The notes under the pieces are model-generated. The model did no database searches. It saw nothing but the letters and a program-made list of their open reading frames with translations, and had not been told where the DNA came from. A program made the position numbers and the translations under genes. DNA of 64,000 nucleotides, from contig DUZQ01000003.1 of assembly GCA_013349435.1 (NCBI GenBank), positions 1 to 64,000 of the forward strand, read 5' to 3'. Positions 24,608 to 59,040 of the stretch are shown one piece after another; position 1 is the stretch's first letter, and the number at the start of each line of letters is the position of its first letter. Source of the DNA: Planctomycetota bacterium (GTDB lineage Bacteria > Planctomycetota > Phycisphaerae > Sedimentisphaerales > Anaerohalosphaeraceae).

Positions 24608-27208
24608 TTACCTTTGCCCGCGAGCAGCTTCTTTTCGGATAGCCTTGCGGGAGTTCGCCTCGACCCGGCGGTATTTTTCCACATGGGCCAGTCGCTGCCG
24701 GTCTTTTTCCCACGGGACAAAACCCGGCATGTCCGCCCGTGGGCGTTCCTTCATCCGCTCCTGTCCTTTGCGAATAATTGCCAGTGCCTCGCGGTATTCG
24801 TTTGAATCCTTTGAGAGAGGCACAAGACATGGGCTAAGTTCGGGCCGGTCGAAACTAATGACGGGACCCTTGTAAAAAACGGCCTGGACCACTTCTTGGG
24901 GATAAAAACCTGTAAGCCGGGCAAGATGTTGCATCTCCTGTTCATTCAGGGGACATCGCCCGGGCGTATTGTACGGATAAGCACAGCAGGCTGTCGGGTA
25001 GTAAGGCCCGTTAATGTCGGCCCAGGTAATCATACGATTCATACTCTCGGCATTGAGCCTGACGTTCTTGTGTCTTGCACGGAGGATTTTGATTAAATGA
25101 CTGGCGCTTGAGCCCCAGCTTCTGGGCGGAAGGTGAGCGGCGGGACCTGCGCCTATGCCACCCACCAGTTTTCGGCTCCACAATTCCATGTAGGAAACAC
25201 AGAAGGAAGCATTTCTGTCACCCGCCAGTACGATTCTTTTAGCTCCTTTTTTGCCGAAGTCGTGACATCGAATACAGTATTTGTCGAGCACAGGTTGAAC
25301 TTCGTTCTGATAACTGAACGGTCGCGGCGGACCATACCACCGGCTCAGCCTGCTTGGCTCCCGCTTCAGGGCCAAAGTTGCATTTTGACCGGCTGAGTAA
25401 GGGCTTGCTATCAGGCGCGACTCATGGCACCCGATGCATGACAGTTTTTCTCCCGAATGGATCGAAGTACCGCTGCGCATGCTTTGAATCATCATATCGT
25501 TTTTATCCAGCAGTTGAAAATAGATGAATCTGTCGCAGGGTACGGCGAAGTATGCACTGCCATCGGCCTCAACGGGTACGGTTCCGAGGACCTGTTTGGG
25601 ATTGAAGTCCGTCCAGTTCACACCAGGGTCCTGACCACCCATACCCTCCCAACTGCCCGCATCTGAGAGACCACGCTTGCTCAGCACTTCGACAACACGA
25701 ATCTTCTTAACAAGGCCCGGTTTGACACCTTTCATATGAGTACCAATATAAACATTCTGGATATAGAAGATGCCCTCTCCATTGCCGTAGTCCCTCCGCG
25801 GCTGGATAACGGCCGGTCTGGGACTCGGAGCAAGAGGCATAGGGCAGTAGCAGCCTGACTCGTCGGCGTGCAGCTTTATCTCGTTGCCGAAAACATCCAC
25901 CAGGTAAATTGCGGTCTTGCCCATTCTCTCCGGTGCCCGAACACAAAGGAAATACTTTTCACTGAGGGGCCAGGGTGTGTTGTACCAGGGTTTAACGTTT
26001 CGGAGACTGTCATCATGTCTGTGCATCCGCATATTTGCATCGTCTTCCCAGAGCTGGCGCACCTGGGGCGACCACGAGCGCACACACATTCGAACCGTCC
26101 TACTCCTCTCGTTTTCCAGTGAATCTTTTTGTGGTTGTATAAAACGGTCTTTTACCTCGGCAGGCCATGTCCTTATAATAGACTCCGGCCCGTCAATCGC
26201 TATCCGTGGAGCAATTATGGCAAGCGCTCCGCCAAGCCTGCTATGGTGAGTACCGAGTATGCAAAGAAGGCGTCCGGTGGCTGGTATGGTTCGTGCATTC
26301 CAGGCTGCGGATGGATTGGTTGTATTATTGCCCCATATCAGGGCCGGGTTTGTTCCATCAGGATTGGTAACCCAGAAACAATGGCCGTCACTGAAATTCC
26401 GGTCAACATAGTCCCAGCGGCTGTAAAGAATCCGCCCGTCCGGCATCAATGATATTTGATTCTCGTGGGCCGTGCTTCGGGTGATTTGATGGATGTTGGC
26501 ACCATCCAAATCCATACGAAACAGATGCGGCACCATTTGTGTATCACAGGGCACGTACTTCAGGTCGCGGCAAGAAGTGAAAAGGATGCTGTCATCAGGA
26601 AGATAAACAGGGTCAACATCGCTGACATCCGAAGCATTTGTAATTTGCCTGACCTTCTTTTTTGGCGAGGCTGAATCGATTTCATATATGTTAAAATACT
26701 CGTTTTGATTGCGACTCATCGAAAAGAGAATCCGGTTTCCATCGAAATGGACACAGGGATTTCGAATGATTCCCTCGGCGGTTTCTACGATTGTTTCAGT
26801 GGTTCCTGTGGCCGGGTCGAGGACTTTCAAAGCCGCTCCTGGTTTTTCGAAGGCATCTTGTTGCTCCAGCGGCATCCAGCGCTCAAGGTAATGATGGGTT
26901 CCGTCTCTGTCGGCGGCGCGGGCAACATAGAGCAGCGGTTGTCCGCTGACCAAAGGATTGGCCACCAGGGCCTGGCGTTGCAGGCCGGCAAATCCTTCTT
27001 CATCTACCGATTCAAGTTTTTCCAGATATACCCGGCCGTTGGGATACTGCTGGCCGAAGGTCTGAATCAAGTCTTCAACGGCAAGCCGCAACGATTCGAC
27101 CTTGCTGCTGAATTCTTCGCCGGACGAATATCGCCTGCCGTCATCCGCTGCCGCCGTCAGCGTGCCTGCGGAATACGCAATCATTATCAAAATGGTTGTT
27201 ATTCGCAC
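24608..27208 (-). CDS. secreted beta-propeller/di-heme protein, hydrazine synthase alpha-like
   Basis: An 866-residue protein with a signal peptide (1-20), a PD40/TolB-like propeller (SPK repeats such as VHFDGNRILFS and SLMPDGRILYSRWD, about 150-480) and a C-terminal part with two c-type heme sites, CIGCH (591-595) and CIRCH (645-649). This arrangement is that of the hydrazine synthase alpha-subunit-like proteins, which are widespread in planctomycetes outside anammox bacteria. No HzsB/C genes are nearby, so hydrazine formation is not implied. It may transfer electrons in periplasmic sugar oxidation. Confidence 0.75.
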   Translation of the reverse strand: MRITTILIMIAYSAGTLTAAADDGRRYSSGEEFSSKVESLRLAVEDLIQTFGQQYPNGRVYLEKLESVDEEGFAGLQRQALVANPLVSGQPLLYVARAADRDGTHHYLERWMPLEQQDAFEKPGAALKVLDPATGTTETIVETAEGIIRNPCVHFDGNRILFSMSRNQNEYFNIYEIDSASPKKKVRQITNASDVSDVDPVYLPDDSILFTSCRDLKYVPCDTQMVPHLFRMDLDGANIHQITRSTAHENQISLMPDGRILYSRWDYVDRNFSDGHCFWVTNPDGTNPALIWGNNTTNPSAAWNARTIPATGRLLCILGTHHSRLGGALAIIAPRIAIDGPESIIRTWPAEVKDRFIQPQKDSLENERSRTVRMCVRSWSPQVRQLWEDDANMRMHRHDDSLRNVKPWYNTPWPLSEKYFLCVRAPERMGKTAIYLVDVFGNEIKLHADESGCYCPMPLAPSPRPAVIQPRRDYGNGEGIFYIQNVYIGTHMKGVKPGLVKKIRVVEVLSKRGLSDAGSWEGMGGQDPGVNWTDFNPKQVLGTVPVEADGSAYFAVPCDRFIYFQLLDKNDMMIQSMRSGTSIHSGEKLSCIGCHESRLIASPYSAGQNATLALKREPSRLSRWYGPPRPFSYQNEVQPVLDKYCIRCHDFGKKGAKRIVLAGDRNASFCVSYMELWSRKLVGGIGAGPAAHLPPRSWGSSASHLIKILRARHKNVRLNAESMNRMITWADINGPYYPTACCAYPYNTPGRCPLNEQEMQHLARLTGFYPQEVVQAVFYKGPVISFDRPELSPCLVPLSKDSNEYREALAIIRKGQERMKERPRADMPGFVPWEKDRQRLAHVEKYRRVEANSRKAIRKEAARGQR

Positions 27209-27346: not shown

Positions 27347-28867
27347 CTACAGAGAGTATTGAATTTTGAATGTCCAGGCGTAATCGCACGGGAGCGGCTC
27401 AGGAATCTTTTCGATTACCACATCCTCACCTTCCTGGTGCCAGGGAAGGCTCTCGATACTTCCGAGCATTATGATTTCAGAATCCTTTACAGGCTTTACA
27501 CCGGGGATCACGTATGGAGCGTTTGGCTCGGCCAGCTCAATCGCATAAACAAAATTACCTTTCATAGTGAACCTTATTGACCCTGCTTCGGCAACGTCAA
27601 CCCCGCCGGCAACGAACGGGGCGGGTTTTGAGGCGTACAGGGCCTCTTTGTTGACAGCCATCCACTGGCCCATCTTTTTCAAGGTCTCGACCTGGGACGG
27701 GGGCAGGGTGCCGTCAGCCAATGGCGCCAGACTCAGCAAGGTGATACCGTTCATGCTCTTGCGGTCCACTATTTCGTCAATTATTTCATTGACGGGTCTG
27801 CTGACTGCATCTATTGAGTAAGCCCAGGAATGATTGGTCCCGAGAGATATATCTGTCTGCCATACATCCGGCTGGGCCTCGTCTAACTGGTCGGCCTCAA
27901 TATCCAGTACCGAGCAGGATAGGGGAAGGTCATCCGATTTACGGGTAACCACAACCTCCTTGCCCAGCTTTTCGGCCGTGTTGAAGTAATGCGCAAGGAC
28001 AGACTTGACATATTTTTCACCGATATTACCTTTGTCACTAAAACCGTGTTCAAACCATATTTGTTCCGGAAGGTACTTGTCAATCACCTCAATACATTTG
28101 TCGTGCCATTCCTTCTGGAAACTCTCAGAGAATGGCTCCTGCTGCCACATGCCGCCCTTAAAATCACGTTCCGGTCCGTAAAGACCCGCGTACTTCGGAT
28201 TGTTGACATCTACACCATCTGGGCATATTATCCTTCCCGGATTAAAAAAGTCCCATTGAGCAAATCCATGAAATGATGCGAATGTTTTCATATCATATTT
28301 TCTGACCGCCTCGAGCATCTCTCCAACGACGTCGCGATGCGGTCCCATGTCCATTGAATTGTACTCGGCAATCCCGCTGTCCCACATTGCAAAGCCGTCG
28401 TGGTGGATCGCTACAGGACCTGCGAAATCGGCACCCGATTGTTTGAACAGTGCAGCCCATTCATCCGGATTCCATTTTTCAGCCTTAAACATCGGAATAA
28501 ATTCCCTGTATCCGAATTCAGTACCCGGCTGGCCATATACCTGCTTGACGTAATCATACGTGTTCTTATATTTAGTCTTGTCAACGTGAGCCCACGCTTC
28601 CGATTTACCACCATCCGGCTGGTACATATTACGGCCGCCCCAGCATCCGAAAGCAGGCACTGAATAGACTCCCCAGTGGAAATATATTCCCAAGACAGCA
28701 TCAGAGTACCACTTGGGGGTCTGGTGCCGACCTAAAGATTCCCATGTGGGTTCGTAAGAAACATTTCCATCGTCAGCATCATTTTGAATTTTACTATTAC
28801 AACAGCCAATTAATGCTACGATAAGCAAAACACCGATTAAATAAGAAAATACGCTTGTTGTTTTCAT
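27347..28867 (-). CDS. GH29 alpha-L-fucosidase-like lipoprotein, Glu at nucleophile position
   Basis: A 506-residue protein with a lipobox (ALIGC, Cys22), so probably membrane-anchored. The GH29 barrel is clear: LGIYFHWGVYSVP, AGPVAIHHDGFAMWDS, GPHRDVVGEM. The nucleophile motif, normally WFD, is WFE here (Glu273 in EQIWFEHGF). A C-terminal beta domain follows (about 395-506). GGGGG upstream of the ATG at 28867 supports the start. Closest relative in the window is the GH29 half of the fusion at 32143, which keeps WFD. Confidence 0.85.
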   Translation of the reverse strand: MKTTSVFSYLIGVLLIVALIGCCNSKIQNDADDGNVSYEPTWESLGRHQTPKWYSDAVLGIYFHWGVYSVPAFGCWGGRNMYQPDGGKSEAWAHVDKTKYKNTYDYVKQVYGQPGTEFGYREFIPMFKAEKWNPDEWAALFKQSGADFAGPVAIHHDGFAMWDSGIAEYNSMDMGPHRDVVGEMLEAVRKYDMKTFASFHGFAQWDFFNPGRIICPDGVDVNNPKYAGLYGPERDFKGGMWQQEPFSESFQKEWHDKCIEVIDKYLPEQIWFEHGFSDKGNIGEKYVKSVLAHYFNTAEKLGKEVVVTRKSDDLPLSCSVLDIEADQLDEAQPDVWQTDISLGTNHSWAYSIDAVSRPVNEIIDEIVDRKSMNGITLLSLAPLADGTLPPSQVETLKKMGQWMAVNKEALYASKPAPFVAGGVDVAEAGSIRFTMKGNFVYAIELAEPNAPYVIPGVKPVKDSEIIMLGSIESLPWHQEGEDVVIEKIPEPLPCDYAWTFKIQYSL

Positions 28868-28996: not shown

Positions 28997-29986
28997 TTAC
29001 ATCGGGAAAAGCGGTTCCAATCTGGCTGCGAGGTGTTTTAGTTTCTTAGTCCCTTCATCTGTAATCGGTTGTAAATCAGGCCCTAACTTCAAGGCCATCT
29101 TATACAGATTCTCGTCGCCCGGCGGTATTGCCGCCGTCACACCCTTCTGCGACAACGTCCAACTCAACGCATCCTTCGCTAAGGGCAGGTCCACAATTGG
29201 TTCATACTCGCACTTTGGATAATACTCATGAGTTGATTCCAGAACCGGCAGGCGTTCTCTGATCATGGACTTTATTGCAAGAATTCCCATTCCGCGCCTG
29301 TTAGCTTCCGCCAGGACTCTCTCTGAAAGCTTACCGGTATAGTGGCAACAGAAATTTATTGGAAACATAATTGTGTCAAAATCGAACTGCTTCATTACTC
29401 CAAGTGCCACCTCGGTCGAATGCGCCGAGAACCCGATATGCTTTATCAGGCCCTGCTCTTTGGCCTTTACGAAAGCGTGCACGGCACCTTTCTTGGAAAA
29501 AGCCACTTCGACATCGTCGATAGGGTCATCAAGATTATGAAACTGATACAAGTCCAGATAGTCGGTTTTGAGATGCTTTAGAGACTGATGCAGCTCTTTC
29601 TCGGCTCCTTCACTGTAACGCCTGGCGGTCTTGCAAGCCAGAAATACATCCTTACGAAACGGCTCAAGTGCCGGGCCAAGCTTTATCTCGGAATCACCGT
29701 ATTCCGGCGAAACATCGACATAATTGACTCCTTTTTCGATACTCATTGCAACAATCTTATTCGCATCAGACTGCTTCTGGCCTGCCAGGACCATGCCGCC
29801 CAGACCCAGAATCGAAAGCTTCTGACCCGTTTTACCCAAAACGCGACGGGGCAAGAGTGCAGCTTTGGCATCTGAATCTGAACCGGGTTTCGCCGAAGAT
29901 TCTTCGGATAAATACAAGGCCCCGGCCCCGGCTGCTGATGCCCACAAAAAATCTCTTCTGTTAATGTTGTTTCTTTTCTTTCCCAT
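28997..29986 (-). CDS. Tat-exported aldo/keto reductase
   Basis: A 329-residue protein opening with a Tat signal (NRRDFLWASAAGAGALYL). The AKR barrel keeps the catalytic tetrad: Asp and Tyr in VDVSPEYGDSE, Lys in FLACKTARR, and His in YQFHNL. AKRs use NADPH, and Tat export would allow cofactor loading before secretion. Its place between fucosidase and LamG-family genes suggests a role in reducing or oxidising a sugar or uronate outside the cytoplasm. Substrate not predictable. Confidence 0.85.
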   Translation of the reverse strand: MGKKRNNINRRDFLWASAAGAGALYLSEESSAKPGSDSDAKAALLPRRVLGKTGQKLSILGLGGMVLAGQKQSDANKIVAMSIEKGVNYVDVSPEYGDSEIKLGPALEPFRKDVFLACKTARRYSEGAEKELHQSLKHLKTDYLDLYQFHNLDDPIDDVEVAFSKKGAVHAFVKAKEQGLIKHIGFSAHSTEVALGVMKQFDFDTIMFPINFCCHYTGKLSERVLAEANRRGMGILAIKSMIRERLPVLESTHEYYPKCEYEPIVDLPLAKDALSWTLSQKGVTAAIPPGDENLYKMALKLGPDLQPITDEGTKKLKHLAARLEPLFPM

Positions 29987-32142: not shown

Positions 32143-35100
32143 CTACCTGTGTTTTCTTACAATTTTGAACACAAAGGCATGCTCGCACGGTCTTTCGTCC
32201 GGGGTTTTAATAGTAAGACCTTTTCCTTTCTCAAGCTTCCAGTCCAGTTCTTTGCCGTCGCCTAACATCGTGATTGACTGAATCTCACCGGGATATAAAT
32301 TATATCCTTCAACATCCCAGACGGATTTAGCTGTAATACTTTTGATTAATACTTCTTCGCCGGGCCAATCAAGAACAACGGCATAAAGATTGTCCCCTTT
32401 TACCGTAAAACGAATATCTTCGCCGGTGTAATTCAAGTCAGCTTCATTAAATGAACTGTCACCCCGGCCTTTCCTTCCAACATTTGTCGGCCCTTCACCG
32501 TATTTGGTCCACGCACGCGTACCATAAATGGCCTCACCGTTTATAGCTAACCATTCGCCCATTCCCAACAGTCCTTTTTTGGCGCCATCGGGAATAGTTC
32601 CATCGTGTTTAGGCCCGACATTCATTAACAAATATCCGTTCTTGCTCACCCTGTCAACAAGGTTATCCACTAACCTGTTAACCGATTTATAGTTTAAATT
32701 CGGGATATAACCCCAGGCCCCCTGGTCATCGATGGAACTGTCCGTAATCCATTCATAATGAGTTAAATATGCTTCCTGGCCCAGTTCATAATCCAACAAA
32801 CCAACCCCCAAAGGCAGGTCATGACCTTTATAGGAAATAATAACCTCCTTATCCAGAGCCGAAGCTTTATTGTAATAGTAAGCTACAAAGTCTTTTACAT
32901 AATCTTCACGGATTCTGTCGAGGCCGTAATCAAACCACACAAAATCCGGCCCATATTTGTCCACAACTTCGATGAGTTTTCCGTACCATTCCTGATGAAA
33001 ATCTTCATCGATATAGGGTTCGCCCCTTTCGTGAGGTTGTCCATAGAGGTCCGCATATTCGGGATTGCCGGCATCGGTTGATTTGTCCCATACAGTAAAA
33101 AAGTCCCAGTTGGCGGCATGGTGAAAGGCGGTTACGAATTTCATTCCTTCGGCTTTGATTGCCTTTTCCAGTTCACCGACGACGTCTCTTTTGGGTCCCA
33201 TATTGGCAGCATTCCATTTTGACCATTTTGTGTCCCACATCGCAAATCCGTCATGATGTTCGGCTACGGGGCCGGCAAACTTTGCCCCGGCTTTTTTAAA
33301 CAGTTGGGCCCATTCTTTAGCATCGAATTTTTCGGCCTTGAAGTAGGGAATCAAATCCTTATATCCGAATTCAGGAGTTATTTTCCCGAATCTTTCATAA
33401 AACTCTTTGGCTTCCTTGTGATTCGGTCTGAGATACGCTATATGGCTGTTCCAGGTTGCATTGCTGCTGGTCGCCGTATAGCAGTAAATGCCGAAATGGG
33501 TATATATTCCAAATTTACCGTCTTTGAGCCACCGGGGCGTCTGATGCATACTGAGCGATTCCCACCCCGGTTCGTAAGGACCGTTTCCAATCGGTGTTTG
33601 TGCTGATATTTGTGTCAGCATTATTTTTTCTTTTAATTTTATATCAGCCGATGAAGCACCGATTTGAATTTCAAATTCACCGGGCTCGACCTTCCAGGAT
33701 GAAGTATCTTCGTCCCAGAAAGCAAAGTCCCGTTTCTCAAGTGTGAAATATACCGTTTTCTTCTCGCCTGCTTTCAAATGAACTTTTTCAAAATCCTTAA
33801 GTTCTTTGGCGGGGCGCTCTACTGTAGCTTCCAAATCTCTTACATAAAGCTGCACTATCTCTTTGCCGGCTGCTTTGCCTGTATTTGTTACGTCAACTTT
33901 CACTAAAACATCGTCGCCGATTGTATATTTTTGGGCGTCGGTCTTTAAGTTGGAATATTCGAATGTAGTGTATGACAGGCCGTGCCCGAAGGCATAAAGC
34001 GGCTGGATGTTTTTATGTTCGTACCAGCGGTAGCCCGCGAAAATCCCTTCTTTATAGTTTATGTCATAGACAGGCTTTCCCATAGCCATATCGAACTCGA
34101 AGTCGGAATATAATTCCTCGCCTTCGGGCAGATACGGATAACCGGGCGAATCTTCAAATCTGCGTTCGATTGTAATCGGCAGTTTCCCCGAAGGATTTGT
34201 TGTACCGGCGATAATTTCTGCTAAAGCCTTATTGCCAACCTGGCCGGGATACCAGCAGTATAAAATCGCCGGCACCTCGTTGTTCCATCTGCTCATGTTT
34301 TTGCCGCCGCCTGTATATATAATAACCACTGTTTTATCATTCAAGGTTGCAATCCTGCCGATGTCGGTGTTAATATATTCAGGCAAATCGAAGGGGACAT
34401 CAGAACCTTCGCTGTCGTATGTTGCTGCACTATAGATTACAACTGAAGCTTCGGTTATTTCTTCATCCGTCGGTTCTTCAATGTGTTTCACATTTTCACC
34501 GAATTGTTCTTTTAAGGCATCAAGCAGAGTAACCTGGTCAAAGCCGATTACATAGGCCGCTCCGCCTCCAACAGCCAACTTGTCAACGTATCGGCCGGTT
34601 ACCAAAATGACGTCATCTTGTTTTGCGTGGAAGGGCAGGGTTTGGTTGTCGTTTTTAAGCAGTACAATGCCCTGGCGCGCCGTATCAAGTGCCACCTCAA
34701 CGTGCTTGTCATAATTATTTAAATAAGAAGTATCCTTAACGGTTATTTCATCAAATCTCATAGCAAACGCTGTGGCCATGATGTTTTTGACCATCCGGTC
34801 TATGTCCTGTTCTTTCACTTTACCTTCTTCAATCAGTCCTGGAGCTTCCCGCCGAAGGTATTCTGCAGGGTCATTCTCACTGTAAATACCGTCTTCGGTT
34901 TCGCCCGGCATATCGAGGTCCAGGCCCGACTTTATTGCTTTTTCAGCATCCCAGATTGACAGCCAGTCACTCATAACAAGCCACTTAAAGCCTAAATCTT
35001 TACGCAGCAGTTTGCTAATCACATATTTGCTGTGCGGGCAATATTCGCAGTTAACCTGGTTATATGCCGTCATCACGGCCATCGCACCTGCATTTATTCC

Positions 35101-35763
35101 CGCCTCAAAAGCCGGCGCGTATATCTCGCGTAACGCCCTTTCGCTTACCACTGAGTTTGATGTGCGACGCCTGTGATCGGTATTGTTGGCAATGAAATGC
35201 TTGAGCGTGGCGACAACGCCCGTATTCTGCAGGCCGACGACGTAGTTTTCAATCATCCTTGCCGCCAGAAAAGGGTCCTCTCCGAAATACTCGAAATTCC
35301 GGCCGCACTGTGAAATACGGTACATATTCATACCCGGCCCTAACAGAACGCCGATGCCGCCGGCCCTGCATTCTTCGCCTACACTTTTGGCATAAGCCCG
35401 GGCCAAATCGACATTCCATGTACTGGTCAAAGCAAGAGGGGCCGGAAAGGCTACGGATTTTTCCAAGTGGTCCTTATAATCTATAAGACTCACACCCTGG
35501 GTGGCGTCCGAAAAACGCATTGAAGGAATGCCGTATTTCTCGTAGCCTTTTGTGAAAAATATGCTGTGCCCTCCAATCATTTCAATTTTTTCCTCAAGCG
35601 ACATTTTGCCGATAATGCGTTCAGCTCTTGCCGTCGCCGCTTCGTATGAAACGGGAGGCTCGAAAGGCTCAAACGGGACCTCTTTTTTGAAATCCTGGCC
35701 GCACGTATGTCGGCCTGCGCCAAATGATAAAATTATGAAACACAGTGCAAATAACTTCTTCAT
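32143..35763 (-). CDS. GH3-GH29 fusion, beta-glycosidase plus alpha-L-fucosidase
   Basis: A 1206-residue protein from the ATG at 35763 (AAAGGAG upstream). It contains a signal peptide (1-21), GH3 N- and C-terminal domains with nucleophile D266 in MSDW, and a fibronectin-III-like domain ending near residue 712 (ASSADIKLKEK). GH29 follows from about 730 (PYEPGWESLSMHQTPRW) with nucleophile D945 in VWFDYG, then a C-terminal beta domain. The junction MLTQISAQ looks like the relic of a signal peptide from a formerly separate fucosidase. The GH3 half is a near duplicate of the next gene upstream. One chain could remove fucose and a neighbouring beta-linked sugar. Confidence 0.9.
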   Translation of the reverse strand: MKKLFALCFIILSFGAGRHTCGQDFKKEVPFEPFEPPVSYEAATARAERIIGKMSLEEKIEMIGGHSIFFTKGYEKYGIPSMRFSDATQGVSLIDYKDHLEKSVAFPAPLALTSTWNVDLARAYAKSVGEECRAGGIGVLLGPGMNMYRISQCGRNFEYFGEDPFLAARMIENYVVGLQNTGVVATLKHFIANNTDHRRRTSNSVVSERALREIYAPAFEAGINAGAMAVMTAYNQVNCEYCPHSKYVISKLLRKDLGFKWLVMSDWLSIWDAEKAIKSGLDLDMPGETEDGIYSENDPAEYLRREAPGLIEEGKVKEQDIDRMVKNIMATAFAMRFDEITVKDTSYLNNYDKHVEVALDTARQGIVLLKNDNQTLPFHAKQDDVILVTGRYVDKLAVGGGAAYVIGFDQVTLLDALKEQFGENVKHIEEPTDEEITEASVVIYSAATYDSEGSDVPFDLPEYINTDIGRIATLNDKTVVIIYTGGGKNMSRWNNEVPAILYCWYPGQVGNKALAEIIAGTTNPSGKLPITIERRFEDSPGYPYLPEGEELYSDFEFDMAMGKPVYDINYKEGIFAGYRWYEHKNIQPLYAFGHGLSYTTFEYSNLKTDAQKYTIGDDVLVKVDVTNTGKAAGKEIVQLYVRDLEATVERPAKELKDFEKVHLKAGEKKTVYFTLEKRDFAFWDEDTSSWKVEPGEFEIQIGASSADIKLKEKIMLTQISAQTPIGNGPYEPGWESLSMHQTPRWLKDGKFGIYTHFGIYCYTATSSNATWNSHIAYLRPNHKEAKEFYERFGKITPEFGYKDLIPYFKAEKFDAKEWAQLFKKAGAKFAGPVAEHHDGFAMWDTKWSKWNAANMGPKRDVVGELEKAIKAEGMKFVTAFHHAANWDFFTVWDKSTDAGNPEYADLYGQPHERGEPYIDEDFHQEWYGKLIEVVDKYGPDFVWFDYGLDRIREDYVKDFVAYYYNKASALDKEVIISYKGHDLPLGVGLLDYELGQEAYLTHYEWITDSSIDDQGAWGYIPNLNYKSVNRLVDNLVDRVSKNGYLLMNVGPKHDGTIPDGAKKGLLGMGEWLAINGEAIYGTRAWTKYGEGPTNVGRKGRGDSSFNEADLNYTGEDIRFTVKGDNLYAVVLDWPGEEVLIKSITAKSVWDVEGYNLYPGEIQSITMLGDGKELDWKLEKGKGLTIKTPDERPCEHAFVFKIVRKHR

Positions 35764-35798
35764 AATGCGTCTCCTTTCAGGTAATGTTACGTTCAATC

Positions 35799-37955
35799 TT
35801 AATTCACATAAATTCTTTCTTTTAATCTTATATCAGCCGATGAAGCACCGATTTGAATTTCAAATTCACCGGCCTCGACCTTCCAGGATGAAGTATCTTC
35901 GTCCCAGAAAGCAAAGTCCCGTTTCTTAAGTGTGAAATATACAGTTTTCTTCTCGCCTGCTTTCAAATGAACTTTTTCAAAATCCTTAAGTTCTTTGGCG
36001 GGACGCTCGACCGCAGCTTCCAAATCTCTTACATAAAGCTGCACTATCTCTTTGCCGGCCACTTGACCTGTATTTGTTACGTCAACTTTCACCAGCACGT
36101 CATCACCTGTATTATAATTTCGGGAGTCGGTCTTTAAGTCGGAATATTCGAACGTAGTGTATGACAGGCCGTGCCCGAAGGCATAAAGCGGCTGGATGTT
36201 TTTATGTTCGTACCAGCGGTAGCCCGCGAAAACCCCTTCGTGGTAGTTTACGTCAAAGACAGGATGGTCCATGCCGAAATCATACTCAAGAGCGGCAGGA
36301 TGTAATTCTTCGCCGGCGGGCAGGTACGGATAGCCGGGTGAATCTTCGAACCTGCGCTCGATTGTAATCGGCAGCTTTCCCGACGGATTCGTAACACCAG
36401 CGATAATTTCTGCTAAAGCCTTGTTTCCAACCTGGCCCGGATACCAGCAGTATAAAACGGCCGCTGCATCGTTGTTCCAGCTACTCATATTTCTGCCGCC
36501 GCCGGCATTCATAACAACGACTGTTTTGTCATTCAATTTTGCTATCCTGCTGATTGTTTTGTTCATATCTTCGGGCAGGTCAAAAGAGATGTCCCGACCT
36601 TCAGTATCATTTGTTCCTGCGCTATAGATTACTATCGAGGCATCGGCAATTTCCTCGTCCGTCGGAGACTCTGTGTGTTTTACATTTTCGCCGAATTGCG
36701 CCCTTAAAGCATCAAGTATTGTTATGACATCAAAACCTTCAACATAGGCGGAACCGCCACCGCGTGCTAATTTGGTTGCATATTTGCCGGTCAACAGGAT
36801 TACATCACCTTCTTTCGCGCGGAAAGGCAAGGTTTCGTTTTCGTTTTTAAGCAGTACAATGCCCTGGCGTGCCGTTTCAAGTGCGACTTCAACATGCTTA
36901 TCATAATTATTTAAATAAGAAGTATCCTTCACTTGCCGCCCGGTCAAACCCATAGCAATTATAGTCGTCAGGATATGTTTAACCATAGGGTCTATATCTG
37001 CTTCCTGTACTTTTCCTTCTTTAACCAGGGACGGAGCTTGTCCGCGAAGGAATTTATCATGACCTTCGGGACAGAAAGAACAGTTGACATCTTCGCCCGG
37101 CATATCGAGGTCCAGGCCCGACTTAAGTGCCTTTTCGGCATCCCATATCGACACCCAGTCACTCATTACAAGCCACTGAAAACCCAAATCCCGCCGCAAT
37201 AGTTTGCCGACCACATATTTACTTTGCGGCGAGTATTCGCCGTTAACCAGATTAAAGGAAGTCATCACGGCCATCGCACCTGCATCTACACCCGCTTCGA
37301 ATGCCGGCATATAAATCTCGTGCAGTGCCCTTTCGCTTACCACCGAGTTGGACCTTCGACGCCTGAAATCGCTGTTGTTGGCGATAAAATGCTTGAGCGT
37401 GGCGATTGTTTGCGTGTTTTGCAACCCGACTACATAATTTTCAATCATTCTTGCAGCCAGATAAGGGTCTTCGCCGAAATACTCAAAATTACGCCCGTTC
37501 TGAGAAATACGGTACATATTCATACCCGGCCCTAAAAGAACAGCGATGCCGCCGGCCCTGCATTCTTCGCCGATGCTCTCGGCATAAGCCCGGGCCAAAT
37601 CGGTATTCCACGTACTGGTTAAGGCAATAGGAGCGGGAAAAGCTACGGATTTGTCCAATTCAATAATTCCATCTGTAAGACGGACACCTTGTGTGGCATC
37701 TGCAAATTGTATAGAAGCAATGCCGTATTTATCATAGCCCTTCGTGAAAAACATATTGTATCCTCCAATCATGGCGATTTTTTCCTCAAGTGACATTTGC
37801 CCGAGGATACTTTCGGCTTTTGCCAGGGCGGTTTCGTAAGGAACAGGAGGTTCGAAAGGCTTGAACGGGGCTTCTTTTTGAAATTCCTGCTCAATCGTAT
37901 TTTGGCATGCGCCAAACAACAAAACCGTCAAACACAGTGCAAATAATTTTTTCAT
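35799..37955 (-). CDS. GH3 beta-glycosidase with FnIII-like domain
   Basis: A 718-residue secreted enzyme (signal MKKLFALCLTVLLFGAC) with the GH3 domains and nucleophile D266 in LVMSDWVSIWD, at the same residue number as in the neighbouring fusion. KHFIANNSD and GRNFEYFGEDPYLAARM are GH3 signatures. The protein stops right after the FnIII-like domain (SSADIRLKERIYVN). DNA identity with the GH3 half of the fusion is very high along the 3' part (35817-36240 against 33627-34050), showing a recent tandem duplication. Substrate: a beta-linked glucose, xylose or similar unit. Confidence 0.9.
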   Translation of the reverse strand: MKKLFALCLTVLLFGACQNTIEQEFQKEAPFKPFEPPVPYETALAKAESILGQMSLEEKIAMIGGYNMFFTKGYDKYGIASIQFADATQGVRLTDGIIELDKSVAFPAPIALTSTWNTDLARAYAESIGEECRAGGIAVLLGPGMNMYRISQNGRNFEYFGEDPYLAARMIENYVVGLQNTQTIATLKHFIANNSDFRRRRSNSVVSERALHEIYMPAFEAGVDAGAMAVMTSFNLVNGEYSPQSKYVVGKLLRRDLGFQWLVMSDWVSIWDAEKALKSGLDLDMPGEDVNCSFCPEGHDKFLRGQAPSLVKEGKVQEADIDPMVKHILTTIIAMGLTGRQVKDTSYLNNYDKHVEVALETARQGIVLLKNENETLPFRAKEGDVILLTGKYATKLARGGGSAYVEGFDVITILDALRAQFGENVKHTESPTDEEIADASIVIYSAGTNDTEGRDISFDLPEDMNKTISRIAKLNDKTVVVMNAGGGRNMSSWNNDAAAVLYCWYPGQVGNKALAEIIAGVTNPSGKLPITIERRFEDSPGYPYLPAGEELHPAALEYDFGMDHPVFDVNYHEGVFAGYRWYEHKNIQPLYAFGHGLSYTTFEYSDLKTDSRNYNTGDDVLVKVDVTNTGQVAGKEIVQLYVRDLEAAVERPAKELKDFEKVHLKAGEKKTVYFTLKKRDFAFWDEDTSSWKVEAGEFEIQIGASSADIRLKERIYVN

Positions 37956-38005: not shown

Positions 38006-38902
38006 TTATTTTACGGAGTCATCGGGTGCCATATCCAGTTCTTTGTAAAGCTCGCGTCGGCCTGCTTTATCCCCTTTAATAGTTTCGAGGGCATATTCGG
38101 CGACTTCCTTTGCCTTCTCACGAGGCACAACGATGACGCCGTCACCATCGGCAACGATTACATCGCCGGGGCAAACGAGAACGCCGCCGCAGGAAACAGG
38201 GCGATTGACGCTCTCGATAATGTTTCGCCCGGGCCGGATGCCCCGGGTGACCTTTTTAATGTAGAGGGGAATCTTTTGGGCGGCCACTTCGTCTGTGTCG
38301 CGGGCGCCGCCGCTGGTAACAACGCCGACACAGCCCTTGCTTTTCCACTCCATTATGTTATGTGAACCGATATTACCTGCATCAGTGGAAGGGTCATCGT
38401 CGATAACCAGAGCGGCGCCCGCACGCAGGATTTCGACAAATGGTTCACCGGTAACATTAGCATACATATAGTCAATCCAGTCGTCGAATTCTTTGATGCT
38501 CATATTGCCTCTTGCCGCCGGCTGGTTGGTGGGAACGTAACGGACGGTAACGGCTATACCGACAAAGCGGTGGGTAAAGTGGGTGGTGTCTTTCCAGGAG
38601 GCGTGTATCTCGGCAGACATAAGACCGACATCGGCAAGACCCGCTTTGTCCATCCCGTCGGAAACATCGCTGACACGAAGGCCCCTGAAAAGCTCCAGGA
38701 TTTGCCGGTCCTGCTGTTTTGTATAGACTTTGGTTTGCATAAAGTTATACCCGGCCCGCAACTGCTGCTCGGTCGGTTTTTCAGGAGCGGGATTGTTCTT
38801 GTCTTCCTGCTTGCTTATAGTGGAAAAAGCGCTGGCGGCAAATATTGAAAAAGTGATAACGGCAAGAGCAGTCAGTTTTAATTTGCTGTTTGTAATTCTC
38901 AT
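38006..38902 (-). CDS. exported RraA-like protein (aldolase/demethylmenaquinone methyltransferase fold)
   Basis: The ATG at 38902 (GGAGATGG upstream) gives 298 residues with an N-terminal signal peptide (LTALAVITFSIFAASAFS). The RraA/HMG-aldolase core follows: LRVSDVSDGMDKAGL, DDDPSTDAGNIGSHN, GCVGVVTSGGARDTDE and GDVIVADGDGVIVVP. The GGxRD motif holds the Arg and Asp of the pyruvate-aldolase site. RraA proteins are normally cytoplasmic, so the signal peptide is odd; an extracytoplasmic aldolase or a sugar-acid epimerase-like function is possible. It lies directly after GH3 and before the unknown family member 2. Confidence 0.8.
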   Translation of the reverse strand: MRITNSKLKLTALAVITFSIFAASAFSTISKQEDKNNPAPEKPTEQQLRAGYNFMQTKVYTKQQDRQILELFRGLRVSDVSDGMDKAGLADVGLMSAEIHASWKDTTHFTHRFVGIAVTVRYVPTNQPAARGNMSIKEFDDWIDYMYANVTGEPFVEILRAGAALVIDDDPSTDAGNIGSHNIMEWKSKGCVGVVTSGGARDTDEVAAQKIPLYIKKVTRGIRPGRNIIESVNRPVSCGGVLVCPGDVIVADGDGVIVVPREKAKEVAEYALETIKGDKAGRRELYKELDMAPDDSVK

Positions 38903-38962
38903 TATCCATCTCCTTGTGAGCGGTAGTATTTCAACCAAGGATTATATATTTTTCAGAATAAG

Positions 38963-51576: not shown

Positions 51577-54500
51577 TCAATCTCCCAATATGGCTCGCTT
51601 ATACCGCCGGGGTGAGCAGTCTTCGGGCACGATAACGAAGTTGTCGCCTCTTATTGTCTCGAAACTCAGCGGCGACCCGCTCATATCCTCGAACTTGCTG
51701 CCGTTGCGATATATTGTTACATCTGCCTGTACACCCCAGGGATTGCGCAACCGGCATTTTCCGCCGGACTGCGACCGAATCTCGACAAACTCCACCTCAC
51801 CTTTGCGCATCGATGATGTTACCAGAAAATTGCCCCTGGCCAACAGCGAGAATTGAGCATCCCACTGTCTGGGCCAGGCGCCGAAAACATGGATAACCGT
51901 TTCACCTGCAGGTCCGGGCGGTGTTGCTCTGCAAAGTGCAAGTACAAGTCCTTCCATGGCATTACCAAGTCGTTGACCACCCATTCCCTGATAGCCTTCC
52001 ATCAGGCTGAGCCGATTTCTCAGCGGGCCTCGCCACCGTGCCCACGCTGAGTCCATATCAGGATGGCCTTCTTCAAGACCTTCATAGCGAATCTGTTCGG
52101 GAACCAGGGTCTTTATAGCTTCGGCATCGGCCATGGTCGCAGCCGTGATGGTCTCTTTGGAAAGCTCGCTTACCCTCGGTCTGCCGGGTTGACGATTTGA
52201 TAAAGGTATGTAGGAATTGTTCGCAAGCTCAATCATTTCGGCATCTGTCGTCTCCAACGTAAACAAATCATAGTAGGTGCAGGGGGTCGTGGCTCTGCGA
52301 TTCGTGCTCCGCCTTCCAACCGAGGCATGCTTCGTATTGACCCAGTAGCGTACTTCGCCGTCGTCCGATGTTTCAGTAAATGTCGGCAGGGGTGCAATGT
52401 TGTCTAAGAATTCTTGCCATACGCCGCGCATATCCTCATCCACGCCCAGAACCTGCGATGCCCTTATCGCCGTTGCCGTTACCGCCCGCATCGCAGCCAG
52501 TTCCTCGATTGTATCTGAAGCGCCCCACGTTGACTCCCAGTTATTGACACCGTGAATGTGATACCTGCCGTCCGCTTCTTTTTTGACGTTCGGATAATTG
52601 CGATAAAACTCGGCCACCCCCTTGATAATCGGATAACCGTATTGGCGCAGCCATTGTTTGTCCCGGGTATAATCGTATCGCAGCCAGTGAAAGTAAGCAA
52701 TCCTCGCACCCGAAGCAAACAAATGCAGCACATAGCTGTAAGGCGCCGAGTCTCTGGCTTCCCAGAAATAGTGGCCGTCTATCCACCGTTCGTCATCGAA
52801 GTTTTTCCAGCACCATCGACTGTCAAACGCATTTTTGGGCGCAGCGTACTTCAGAAATTTTTCCGACGCCTCGGACCACCTCTTGCGCACCAGGTACAGG
52901 TCCCGCATTTCCGCGGCAATATCTTCAGGCAAACGAGGCGGACCATTGAACCATGTTGTCTCCTGGAGATAAATGCCTTTGCTGCCCCACTGCTGCTTAG
53001 CCGCCAGCGCCGTCGCATCATAATTTCTATGAAACATTCTGACCGGCGGTTCCGTCAGATTGATTTTGTTCGCCGCTAAAAGAACATTATTATAATAGCA
53101 GAACAGATTGTACATCCACTTCATCGACCCCCATCGGCGTACGTCTCCTTCAGTGTTCCATATCATCCCGCTGTATCGCGGCGGATAATCGCCGCGGGAA
53201 CAGGACGCCATCACATAGAGGAAATAAGTGTAATGCTTCTCGACATATTCAGCCTGGCCGTCGTCGCTTTGTAGATAAACAAAAGAGTTGGACCAGAAAT
53301 CATGCCACCAGTTTTTGGTTGATTGCAGAAGTTCCGTGTATCCTGAACCGGCGGCTTTATTCAGTTGGGCAAGTGCAAGTGAGTTTATATCCTGCTCAAT
53401 ATCAAAGGTCGCTGCGCTGGAAATCAGTATGGTAAATGTTCCTTTGCCCGGCTTTGCAGCAAGCTGAATAGCGCCGTCGTTGAGCTGTTTCACCTGTGCG
53501 TCGCGATCCTGTACACTTACTGCTACACAGGAGCCGCAGTAATACGTCCGATTCTCTATCGCCGAGGCTTCGGGCTGGGGAAACATCGCCGTCCTGTCGG
53601 CAGAATCATCGCCTTCTACGAATTGCTGACGTAGTGTTATATTATTTTCATAAGAGCTAACCCGGCTGAAAGCATAATGATTTCGCAATCGGTAAGTAAC
53701 AGGCCTCAGCGCTCTCAATGTTACCTTTATGCTGTCGGGCGTTTCGCGGTTATCTGTTATCCGCACCGCCATCGCATCCGGCTCCTGGCAGGCAAATACC
53801 TCGGCGCTTACATCATCGCCCTTCACTGTAACTGTCCCATCGTAAACCGACAGATGCTGTTGTGTGTTGTCGGGTGGAAATGCATCGGGGCCGTAATCGG
53901 CGAACTCGATGTCAATAAATCCGCAGCCGTGGGAGTAATCCGAATCAACACGCGCAAAGCTGTTGGTCGAACTGTTTGCGCAGTAAACATCAACGCGGTT
54001 AATCTGAAGCTTAAGCTGCTTGGGGGTTGTCCAGACAAGACTGCCCATAACACCGTTGCCTATCGGAATGCCCTCCATGCTTGTCCTGACCTGTTTGTCA
54101 TAATGAAGGTCCGCTCGGGAAATAAGCTTTTTGAAATTTACTTCCAGTATGGTTGAAACTTTTTCACCCTCTGTCGTACACTCCGTGTTATGATACCCCT
54201 TCTTTTGCCCGGACTCGAACTGCTTTGTAAAAAAATCCGCCGCAAGTGCAATACCCAAATCAGTACCCTCGTAGAAATCATGCCCTTTATCCGGAACCCA
54301 TTTCATCTCCGCATGAGCACCGGCTTGTTTGTATCTGTCATACAAATCCTGCGAATCCTGCGGATCGACCGTTCCGTCCTGGGTGCCGTGGACCAGATAA
54401 AGGGGCGCGGAATTTGAAGATATATTTTCATAAGGCGAAATTAATTTCAAATCGTCTGCATTGATACCGAATCTTTTTGCAAACCTGGCGGAGTCCTCTT

Positions 54501-55386
54501 CAATCTTAAACGCCGGAGTCGCAAAACCAGCCACAGCCTGTACCGCACTCGATACACCCGCATTTCCTCCGGTACCCTCCAACGCCGGCACATCGGCTGT
54601 TGTCCCGAGCAGTGCGACTATATGAGCGCCGGCCGAAGCGCCCAAGGCGCCTATCCTGTCCGCATCAATGCCGTATTTACCCGCGTTGGCTCGTACCCAC
54701 CGCACCGCCGCCTTGCTGTCGTAAACACAGTCAATAATCTCAACGGCAGGGAGCATACGGTAATCTATCGTTACCGCTGCCATTCCCCTGGACGCAAGAT
54801 ATTTTGCAAAAGGCTCGAACCATACCCTCCTGTTGACCCTCCAGCCACCACCGTGAATACACACCACGCACGGCACAGGCTCAGACATCGGCTCAGCCGG
54901 TAAAAATAAATCCAGTTCGAGTTTCTTATTCGGATACTCTGCAAAGACAAGATTGCGGTGTTCGATGATATTATCCGCGGCAAACTCGAAGATGGGCTTG
55001 TTGGCATAAAGAACATACGACAGTATCGTCAGTGTTTTTCCCCACTCCTCTTGACAGCCCTCTTTAAGATACCCCTCATTCTTGCAGAATTTAATGAATT
55101 CCTCGATGTAATCGGCTACTTCTTCGTCGCTAACACGAACACCCAGAAAGAATTTCCGTCTCGCCCCTTCATACGCTTCATCGATTCTGCTGATACATTT
55201 GCTCTCGGCCGCAAAAAAACCGATATAAGGCTCTTCCGCCTCGACCTTACTGTAAAATTCATTATAAGCCTCATTCTGCTGAGCCGAAATCCGCTCATTC
55301 ATGCCGAAACCGTCCCGTCCCTCTTCGGCACACTGCGCCAAAACCGACAATGAAATCACCGTAATAATTAAATATCGAACTTTCAT
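51577..55386 (-). CDS. esterase-GH95 fusion
   Basis: A 1269-residue secreted protein. After a signal peptide (1-20) and a helical stretch come an alpha/beta-hydrolase of the BD-FAE/carboxylesterase type (about 140-390). It shows HGGGW (178-182), nucleophile S251 in GASAG, His369 in DKGHDF and an Asp in TQDGTVD. A GH95-like region follows (about 425-1269) with MEGIPIGNGVMGSLVW, an all-alpha barrel core, and NNWESTWGASDTIEE. GH95 enzymes are alpha-L-fucosidases or alpha-L-galactosidases. One polypeptide could remove an acyl group and then a fucose or galactose residue. Confidence 0.85.
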   Translation of the reverse strand: MKVRYLIITVISLSVLAQCAEEGRDGFGMNERISAQQNEAYNEFYSKVEAEEPYIGFFAAESKCISRIDEAYEGARRKFFLGVRVSDEEVADYIEEFIKFCKNEGYLKEGCQEEWGKTLTILSYVLYANKPIFEFAADNIIEHRNLVFAEYPNKKLELDLFLPAEPMSEPVPCVVCIHGGGWRVNRRVWFEPFAKYLASRGMAAVTIDYRMLPAVEIIDCVYDSKAAVRWVRANAGKYGIDADRIGALGASAGAHIVALLGTTADVPALEGTGGNAGVSSAVQAVAGFATPAFKIEEDSARFAKRFGINADDLKLISPYENISSNSAPLYLVHGTQDGTVDPQDSQDLYDRYKQAGAHAEMKWVPDKGHDFYEGTDLGIALAADFFTKQFESGQKKGYHNTECTTEGEKVSTILEVNFKKLISRADLHYDKQVRTSMEGIPIGNGVMGSLVWTTPKQLKLQINRVDVYCANSSTNSFARVDSDYSHGCGFIDIEFADYGPDAFPPDNTQQHLSVYDGTVTVKGDDVSAEVFACQEPDAMAVRITDNRETPDSIKVTLRALRPVTYRLRNHYAFSRVSSYENNITLRQQFVEGDDSADRTAMFPQPEASAIENRTYYCGSCVAVSVQDRDAQVKQLNDGAIQLAAKPGKGTFTILISSAATFDIEQDINSLALAQLNKAAGSGYTELLQSTKNWWHDFWSNSFVYLQSDDGQAEYVEKHYTYFLYVMASCSRGDYPPRYSGMIWNTEGDVRRWGSMKWMYNLFCYYNNVLLAANKINLTEPPVRMFHRNYDATALAAKQQWGSKGIYLQETTWFNGPPRLPEDIAAEMRDLYLVRKRWSEASEKFLKYAAPKNAFDSRWCWKNFDDERWIDGHYFWEARDSAPYSYVLHLFASGARIAYFHWLRYDYTRDKQWLRQYGYPIIKGVAEFYRNYPNVKKEADGRYHIHGVNNWESTWGASDTIEELAAMRAVTATAIRASQVLGVDEDMRGVWQEFLDNIAPLPTFTETSDDGEVRYWVNTKHASVGRRSTNRRATTPCTYYDLFTLETTDAEMIELANNSYIPLSNRQPGRPRVSELSKETITAATMADAEAIKTLVPEQIRYEGLEEGHPDMDSAWARWRGPLRNRLSLMEGYQGMGGQRLGNAMEGLVLALCRATPPGPAGETVIHVFGAWPRQWDAQFSLLARGNFLVTSSMRKGEVEFVEIRSQSGGKCRLRNPWGVQADVTIYRNGSKFEDMSGSPLSFETIRGDNFVIVPEDCSPRRYKRAILGD

Positions 55387-55675: not shown

Positions 55676-56200
55676 CTATCTTTGAATGTAATCTATTTGG
55701 CCAAGGTTGGTATATTTTTCACGAAACCTCTTGCTGAATTGCCAGCCCAACGCTCGTCCTAAGCCTGCCTCGCTTAAAACCTCCTCAAGAGAAATGCCTT
55801 GCTCAGCTTTTCCGAGAAAACCGAGAACTCTGAACACCGCCCCATCTGCTGCACATACTTTCCAATCCTCTGATGAACCGACTAAAATAGCTAATGTCTG
55901 TTTTTCTCCATCGTGTACGATATCTGCATACGACTCGGGAAGCTTGTTCAGTAAAGACTTAGCTAACGAAGAATCTGTGTCTAAAATTTGAATTAACCCT
56001 TTGTCTTGGTAGGGTTCCAAATCTATACGGATGTCTTGTAATTCTTGGCTTGCGTACTTTGCTTCGTTTGCGACGATTTTTGATACCGTAACATCGCACC
56101 GATCGATAAATTCATCCCATATATTTAGCTTAAAGAGCTCGATTATCGGTCCGGCATCAAGTAACAGAAATTGATATTTCTTCTTTCCCGAATTCTTCAT
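55676..56200 (-). CDS. PIN-like nuclease, probable toxin
   Basis: A 174-residue protein with PIN-domain features: LLLDAGPIIELFKLN at the N-terminus (first acidic residue), ANEAKYAS in the middle, and VHDGEKQTLAIL with CAADGAVFRVLGFL toward the end (further acids). Its first 44 nt overlap the XRE-ImmA/IrrE gene, and GGAAG precedes the ATG. PIN proteins next to XRE-COG2856 genes have been predicted as toxin-antitoxin pairs, with the PIN part cleaving RNA. Confidence 0.75.
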   Translation of the reverse strand: MKNSGKKKYQFLLLDAGPIIELFKLNIWDEFIDRCDVTVSKIVANEAKYASQELQDIRIDLEPYQDKGLIQILDTDSSLAKSLLNKLPESYADIVHDGEKQTLAILVGSSEDWKVCAADGAVFRVLGFLGKAEQGISLEEVLSEAGLGRALGWQFSKRFREKYTNLGQIDYIQR

Positions 56201-57263
56201 CTTCCGTGAGGTACCCCTCGGCTTCCTTATAGCTGATGTTCATGTATTTTTTAAACTGCATTAGTGACAGTTTGCCCTGCCTGAGTGCTCTTATCGCCAA
56301 ACTACAGTAACGTTCAGGTAATTCATCCGGCTCATCAGACTTTCTTGGTGGCCGTATCGACCTCATTTTTTGAGCCATTTTAATATACTCAGCAACCTTC
56401 TGTCTCGGTGTGTTATAAAGGCAAAGCATTCGCCACAGCAGCGCTTCCAGAGAAACACCGAATTCTCTCGCTATTTCATCCAACGCTTCAAGGGGAATAT
56501 TGCCTTTACTGTCGGCCGCAGACTCGATTTTATCCTTGACAGAGTCCGTAGGTAGCAATAGCCGACTGGCAAACGCATTAGCCAGTTTTTCCTCTTGCGC
56601 TCCTGGTTTTCCTTCCCCTCCATTAACTCTGAAAATATCCCATGTCAAAAGGTGAAATAGTTCATGAGCAATATCAAAGTTACGCCGCCACAATTTACTT
56701 TCCTTATTCAACAGAATAGCGGGCCCAAAGCTGCCATCAAATATAGAGATGGCGCTGCCAGGAAAATTGAGATGGAATATCTTAACGTAAAACTGTTCCT
56801 CGAGAATTTGTTTCAGTGAACAGCTCGGCACATCACCCGGCAGCAATTCCCTTTGCACTTTTTCAGCCAGTTTGCAGGCTTGAAGATAATCAAAACTTTC
56901 TCGCTCGATAGTATCCGCCTTTGGTAAGCTTGCTCTTCGGAGTTGTCCTGTGCACAACTCGAGGCGATGATACTGTTCGCAAAGCTGACGGAATTTGGCT
57001 TCTGTTTCTTTTCTTTCTTCATCAATTGCGGGAGGATCACGCCAAAGCGGCACTGCTTCGGCGGGGATATCGTCAGCGAGAAAAAACGTTATTCCCCTTT
57101 TGTAGATGTCGGCTAATTTACTTAGTTGTGAAAAGCTCGGCTCTCTGTTTCCATTTTCAAAATCACTGATCGAAGTATACCCGATTCCGCTTTCTTGTTC
57201 CGCTCTTTTGAGAGTATATCCAATTGTTTTTCTGGCAATTTTTAATCTCTTCCCAATTTCCAT
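56157..57263 (-). CDS. XRE HTH - ImmA/IrrE metallopeptidase, probable antitoxin/regulator
   Basis: The ATG at 57263 (GGAGG upstream at correct spacing) gives 368 residues. An XRE helix-turn-helix (about 3-57: RLKIARKTIGYTL, GYTSISDFENGNREPS) is joined to a COG2856 zinc peptidase with DIAHELFHLLTW (HExxH) near residue 185 and an EEKLANAFASRLLLP segment. It likely represses its own promoter and may be cleaved or cleave a partner under stress, as in ImmR/ImmA systems. It overlaps the PIN gene. Confidence 0.85.
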   Translation of the reverse strand: MEIGKRLKIARKTIGYTLKRAEQESGIGYTSISDFENGNREPSFSQLSKLADIYKRGITFFLADDIPAEAVPLWRDPPAIDEERKETEAKFRQLCEQYHRLELCTGQLRRASLPKADTIERESFDYLQACKLAEKVQRELLPGDVPSCSLKQILEEQFYVKIFHLNFPGSAISIFDGSFGPAILLNKESKLWRRNFDIAHELFHLLTWDIFRVNGGEGKPGAQEEKLANAFASRLLLPTDSVKDKIESAADSKGNIPLEALDEIAREFGVSLEALLWRMLCLYNTPRQKVAEYIKMAQKMRSIRPPRKSDEPDELPERYCSLAIRALRQGKLSLMQFKKYMNISYKEAEGYLTEDEEFGKEEISISVT

Positions 57264-57274
57264 TGTCATCCTCC

Positions 57275-57300
57275 AATATTCTGATTTTCCGAAATATTCT
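57275..57300. promoter_or_regulatory. two direct repeats AATATTCT, XRE operator candidate
   Basis: AATATTCT occurs at 57275-57282 and 57293-57300, 18 bp apart, the second overlapping the -10 box of the toxin-antitoxin promoter. Confidence 0.45.
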
Positions 57301-57324
57301 AACATATAAAAATTATTAACGCAA
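57296..57324 (-). promoter_or_regulatory. promoter of the PIN/XRE operon
   Basis: Minus strand: TTGCGT (57324-57319), 17-nt spacer, TAGAAT (57301-57296), about 33 nt before the ATG at 57263, in an AT-rich stretch. Confidence 0.5.
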
Positions 57325-57405
57325 TAATTTTTTCTGGAAAAAGCAAATTTGTATGTTTTTTCGGCAAAATGGTCTGAAATCGTTAATTTTTTACTTTTCG
57401 GGAGT

Positions 57406-58953: not shown

Positions 58954-59040
58954 ACCCGTATATCCTTTCGTTAATTGATTTATGTTGACTTGATAGTAAC
59001 GGAAAACTGTCATTCTGAGGCGCAGCCGAAATTACTGTCA

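Follow-up and report, generated by a model that had tools for sequence, protein, structure and literature searches.

The window analysed here, a stretch of 64,000 nucleotides, carries a minus-strand run of genes for glycan degradation. Within this run a gene coding for a GH3 glycosidase continues in frame into a GH29 glycosidase, next to a second, lone GH3 gene. The features on which the argument turns are the following.

28997..29986, minus strand: aldo/keto reductase gene, whose relative in CSMAG_1168 begins after a GH29 leftover (see below)
32143..35763, minus strand: GH3-GH29 fusion gene, 1206 aa, ATG start at 35763 (open reading frame, Pfam, AAAGGAG)
32146..33576, minus strand: GH29 half of the fusion, residues 730-1206, with nucleophile D945 and Fucosidase_C
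33577..33621, minus strand: linker of the fusion, MLTQISAQTPIGNGP, residues 715-729, which may be left over from a GH29 signal peptide
33622..35763, minus strand: GH3 half of the fusion, residues 1-714, with signal peptide, GH3 N, GH3 C and Fn3-like domains, D266 and E452
35799..37955, minus strand: lone GH3, the tandem copy upstream of the fusion, 718 aa, with D266 and Cys17 at a lipobox position (open reading frame, Pfam)
35811..36335, minus strand: part of the lone GH3 homogenised with the fusion, codons 541-715
33622..34143, minus strand: counterpart of this stretch in the fusion, codons 541-714, where likeness is highest in the last ~55 codons
43781..45565, minus strand: GH32 gene, of which an 86% identical relative lies directly upstream of a GH3 fusion in CSMAG_1168

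The best start of the fusion is the ATG at 35763, preceded by AAAGGAG, and it gives a product of 1206 residues; the version of 1217 residues listed by the ORF program begins at a TTG further upstream. A single frame holds the GH3 N, GH3 C, Fn3-like, GH29 and Fucosidase_C domains (Pfam). GH3 N and GH3 C score above the gathering score in both GH3 copies, and the Alpha_L_fucos domain reaches 306.6 bits for a cut-off of 25.2. A preliminary description of this DNA, made by a model from the letters and a list of open reading frames, had reported the 1206-residue fusion, the separate GH3 of 718 residues and a nucleophile at residue 266 in both copies; both reading frames and their domains are indeed there, and alignment places Asp266 as described. 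This Asp stands in an SDW motif. In the fusion it aligns, together with the acid/base E452, with the catalytic residues of solved GH3 exo-beta-glycosidases that have an Fn3-like domain (8va7, 7ms2, 8j9f and Thermotoga neapolitana Bgl3B, 2x40), and these enzymes agree with it in all three domains and in their order. The GH3 of the fusion is, however, only distantly like them, and its specificity cannot be assigned by NCBIfam models, none of which reaches its cut-off as a functional model for either the GH3 or the GH29. The GH29 half, with its nucleophile D945 in a WFD motif aligned with 7snk, is aligned over the whole domain with its best solved matches, the alpha-L-fucosidase 7snk and the exo-alpha-L-galactosidase 7ljj/7lnp (E ~1e-93). 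Unlike in those enzymes, the domain here forms the C-terminal part of a fusion, and fucosidase and L-galactosidase are indistinguishable by sequence. GH29-like proteins at 27347-28867 of the window, and in two further loci (L033 3726-5252 and L125), have Glu (WFE) in place of the expected catalytic Asp (WFD) and may be inactive or altered. On another contig of the source genome (C53; L034 2422-6816) a protein of 1464 residues has three consecutive GH29 domains, the middle one with WFQ at its nucleophile site.

One reading frame with two catalytic domains and intact catalytic residues has counterparts among the multicatalytic CAZymes of Bacteroidetes, such as CE15-GH8 (PMC8417218) and fused esterases (PMC7110780), which likewise are secreted chains with two catalytic domains encoded inside a glycan-degradation locus. 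By contrast, no GH3-GH29 fusion or combination was found in the literature searched. From its domains and its place, the fusion is most likely a secreted two-activity glycosidase of a sulfated-glycan locus, with a GH3 half predicted to be a beta-glycosidase and a GH29 half predicted to be an exo-alpha-L-fucosidase or alpha-L-galactosidase. Our best guess is that it would remove a beta-linked sugar and alpha-L-fucose or L-galactose from one sulfated glycan. The two activities would probably act in succession on one branched, fucose-containing substrate, for which the neighbours of the fusion (two sulfatases, GH32s, a second GH29 and an esterase-GH95-like fusion) may provide the other tools. Two catalytic domains in one chain are no proof of joint action, but the fusion offers a GH3-GH29 pair in which such action can be assayed.

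The lone GH3 (37955-35799) lies upstream of the fusion across a gap of 35 bp and has the same GH3 N, GH3 C and Fn3-like domains (Pfam). At residue 17, a lipoprotein-like spot, it has a Cys, as does the GH3 of CSMAG_1168, where the fusion has a Gly; this difference may mean that the lone enzyme is anchored and the fusion soluble. The two copies diverge directly after a common K-E-K/R-I. Past this point the lone copy adds a few residues and ends in Y-V-N, while in the fusion MLTQISAQTPIGNGP leads on into GH29, so that the lone GH3 does stop where the fusion continues, as had been described. The same description had seen a signal-peptide-like MLTQISAQ kept at the joint. This peptide is present, as residues 715-722 of the fusion, and by alignment its position matches the signal-peptide ends of lone GH29 relatives; it has, however, eight residues and no hydrophobic core. 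Because the signal peptide of the lone relatives ends just before the matching point, a GH29 signal peptide is a reasonable source for the linker, though eight residues cannot prove it. S-A-Q closes the linkers of both this fusion and that of CSMAG_1168, at an equal distance from the end of the GH3, which hints at a joint shared between the two loci, although signal peptides commonly end this way too.

The lone and fused GH3, found to be 76% identical in protein, had been called close duplicates, and this holds mostly for their last third. Over codons 1-540 they are far apart, with a dS of ~0.96 (NG86, a coarse estimate near 1) and a fourfold-site identity of 0.61. This is much the distance that separates the window copies from the GH3 of CSMAG_1168, in another family of the same order (dS 0.91 and 0.98). 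Over codons 541-714, dS drops to 0.25 (NG86) and fourfold-site identity rises to 0.87; in the last 56 codons dS is 0.06. The comparison of synonymous sites, proposed at first as a check on the youth of the pair, thus returns low values at the 3' end and not along the whole duplicate. Chance hardly explains the contrast between 0.61 and 0.87 (Fisher p = 2e-4). The longest identical run between the copies is 79 nt, whereas shuffling the mismatches gives an expected 28 nt and at most 59 nt in 2000 shuffles. Synonymous constraint was considered as a cause of the conserved 3' end and rejected, as each copy shows ordinary divergence from CSMAG_1168 in that stretch (dS 1.25-1.29). The sharp contrast in divergence, together with this normal 3' distance to the relative, marks the low 3' divergence as gene conversion within an old pair. 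Both copies are constrained, with a dN/dS of ~0.17 over codons 1-540. Gene conversion can make a duplicate look young locally, and the age of a fusion is not to be read from the sequence beside its joint.

The phylogeny of the GH3 domain changes along the gene in the same way. In a tree of codons 35-540 from 41 GH3s, the lone GH3 pairs with that of CSMAG_1168 (support 97/80, down to 83/72 in a smaller run of 20 rows), and the fused GH3 groups with two GH3s of Bacteroidota, from Marinoscillum and Flammeovirgaceae (99/92). Forcing the lone and fused copies together over these codons is rejected (p-AU 0.014), and so is grouping the fused copy with CSMAG_1168 (p-AU 0.017); uniting all three Planctomycetota copies in one clade gives a borderline result (p-AU 0.047). 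Over codons 541-714, by contrast, the lone and fused copies group as sisters (97), as gene conversion predicts. On this evidence the lone and fused GH3 copies are not sisters, nor each other's closest relatives, the exact deeper order being less sure. It had also been asked whether the lone GH3 might derive by truncation from an ancient, widespread fusion. The lone GH3 does stop at the joint and match the fusion at its 3' end, yet the tree separates the two copies, recent sharing is limited to the 3' third, and lone GH3s of ~700-740 residues are the general state among relatives, so that a truncated origin is most improbable.

The nearest relative is a Phycisphaerae MAG, CSMAG_1168 (locus L038; two entries, G405 and G432, with identical coordinates and scores were counted as one genome). 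There, a GH3 ~78% identical is fused after the same Fn3-like end, but in frame with a different large secreted protein (L038 7962-12042 with L130), which has a weak match to GH67N and NCBIfam scores far below cut-off; an AlphaFold2 model for a lone relative of this partner has a mean pLDDT of 51. The reading frame of this second fusion leaves one contig (C56), and another (C76) opens with an exact overlap of 79 nt and continues the frame to a stop. In lone relatives of the partner (family f1, L145-L151), which have signal-peptide-like N-termini of their own, one reading frame spans the joint, and this supports the joining of the two contigs. Directly after the stop come 109 residues of a GH29 C-terminus, followed by the start of an aldo/keto reductase like that at 28997-29986. 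This leftover shares 82% of its residues with the fused GH29 of the window and at most 64% with any other GH29 compared. We conclude from these comparisons, and from the GH32 upstream, that the two loci are related, and that the GH3 already stood next to a GH29 of the fused type, or was joined to it, when the loci diverged. The leftover behind the same GH3 makes their adjacency, at least, old. In CSMAG_1168 the GH29 partner appears to have been replaced by the other protein, and the two loci together trace the replacement of a partner in a multi-enzyme fusion with unusual directness.

The leftover bears on two further accounts of the fusion. The preliminary description had taken the pair for a recent tandem GH3 duplication in which one copy had just been joined to GH29, a fusion caught soon after its birth. 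Such an account would suit the tandem position, the near-identity of the last 56 codons and the occurrence of the fusion in no other genome searched. It conflicts, however, with the high dS across three quarters of the gene, with the rejection of sisterhood, and with the remains of this GH29 found next to the corresponding GH3 in a different family. It is improbable, having been based on a stretch made young-looking by gene conversion, although the fusion event itself could be younger than the GH3 duplication. The fusion might also be an error of assembly or frame, the genome being a draft of 139 contigs in which the GH3 copies share near-identical stretches. Yet no identical stretch exceeds 79 nt, differences between the copies continue right up to the joint, the GH29 half stays in frame with its catalytic residues intact, and CSMAG_1168, too, has this GH29 behind its GH3. 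There is scarcely any chance that an artefact of this kind produced it.

Other GH3-GH29 fusions were sought widely. None was found in 161 genomes of the order, among 392 genomes sampled from the phylum or in 395 genomes from the class of Mariniflexile (Bacteroidota), at an E-value limit of 1e-150 that would miss distant fusions, nor among the 80 nearest GH3 loci (GTDB r220). The one same-genus genome compared, 78% complete, had no match to the fusion at the 1e-150 cut-off. In a Flammeovirgaceae genome the GH3 and GH29 parts are separate genes on different contigs. Far from being widespread, the fusion was thus seen in its source genome only, and even its type of GH3 is rare in the class (3/397 genomes at 1e-120). 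The fusion is real and rare, and plausibly bifunctional.

The history of the locus may include movement between lineages. Third-position identity between the window genome and CSMAG_1168 is 0.59-0.62 for GH32 and GH3 and 0.37 for the core gene yebC. This higher identity fits, and suggests, a horizontal transfer of the locus between families, with yebC as the one yardstick gene; DAHP synthase, intended as a second, had no match in CSMAG_1168. It is conceivable, if on the unlikely side, that the two GH3 genes were acquired separately by horizontal transfer, joined in one locus and then homogenised at their 3' ends, in place of an in-place duplication. The affinity of the fused copy with Marinoscillum and Flammeovirgaceae and of the lone copy with CSMAG_1168, the rarity of this GH3 in the class and the third-position identities all speak for it. 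However, one old duplication followed by losses yields the same tree, and the argument from movement relies on a single core gene.

The best explanation overall, which we hold to be probable, is that of a secreted GH3 + GH29 enzyme formed by stop loss in an old GH3 pair and followed by gene conversion at the 3' end. The separation of the two copies would be ancient, roughly as deep as that between the two Phycisphaerae loci. The downstream GH3 would then have lost its stop and been read in frame into an adjoining GH29 gene, retaining a few residues of the GH29 signal peptide. Since then the 3' thirds of the copies would have been made alike by gene conversion, latest beside the joint. More tentatively, the GH3 C-terminus may serve as a fusion hub. 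It would have received GH29 in one lineage; in the relative, GH29 would have been excised in favour of a different large secreted protein attached at that same point, with the last 109 residues of GH29 remaining as a scar. Repeated gene conversion between tandem GH3s would make the joint available to either copy time and again.

Several other genes of the window deserve mention. The esterase-GH95-like neighbour (51577-55386) is a fusion of 1269 residues that joins an esterase-like domain (BD-FAE) to a GH95/DUF5703-like part, and is a second multi-domain enzyme of the locus. At 38006-38938 lies an RraA/aldolase-like protein with a signal-peptide-like N-terminus, unusual in that family. A protein with a hydrazine-synthase-alpha middle domain (24608-27208) adjoins the sugar locus. 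At 56157-59013, an HTH/IrrE-like protein and a weak terminase-like match are perhaps the remnant of a phage or mobile element at the edge of the locus.
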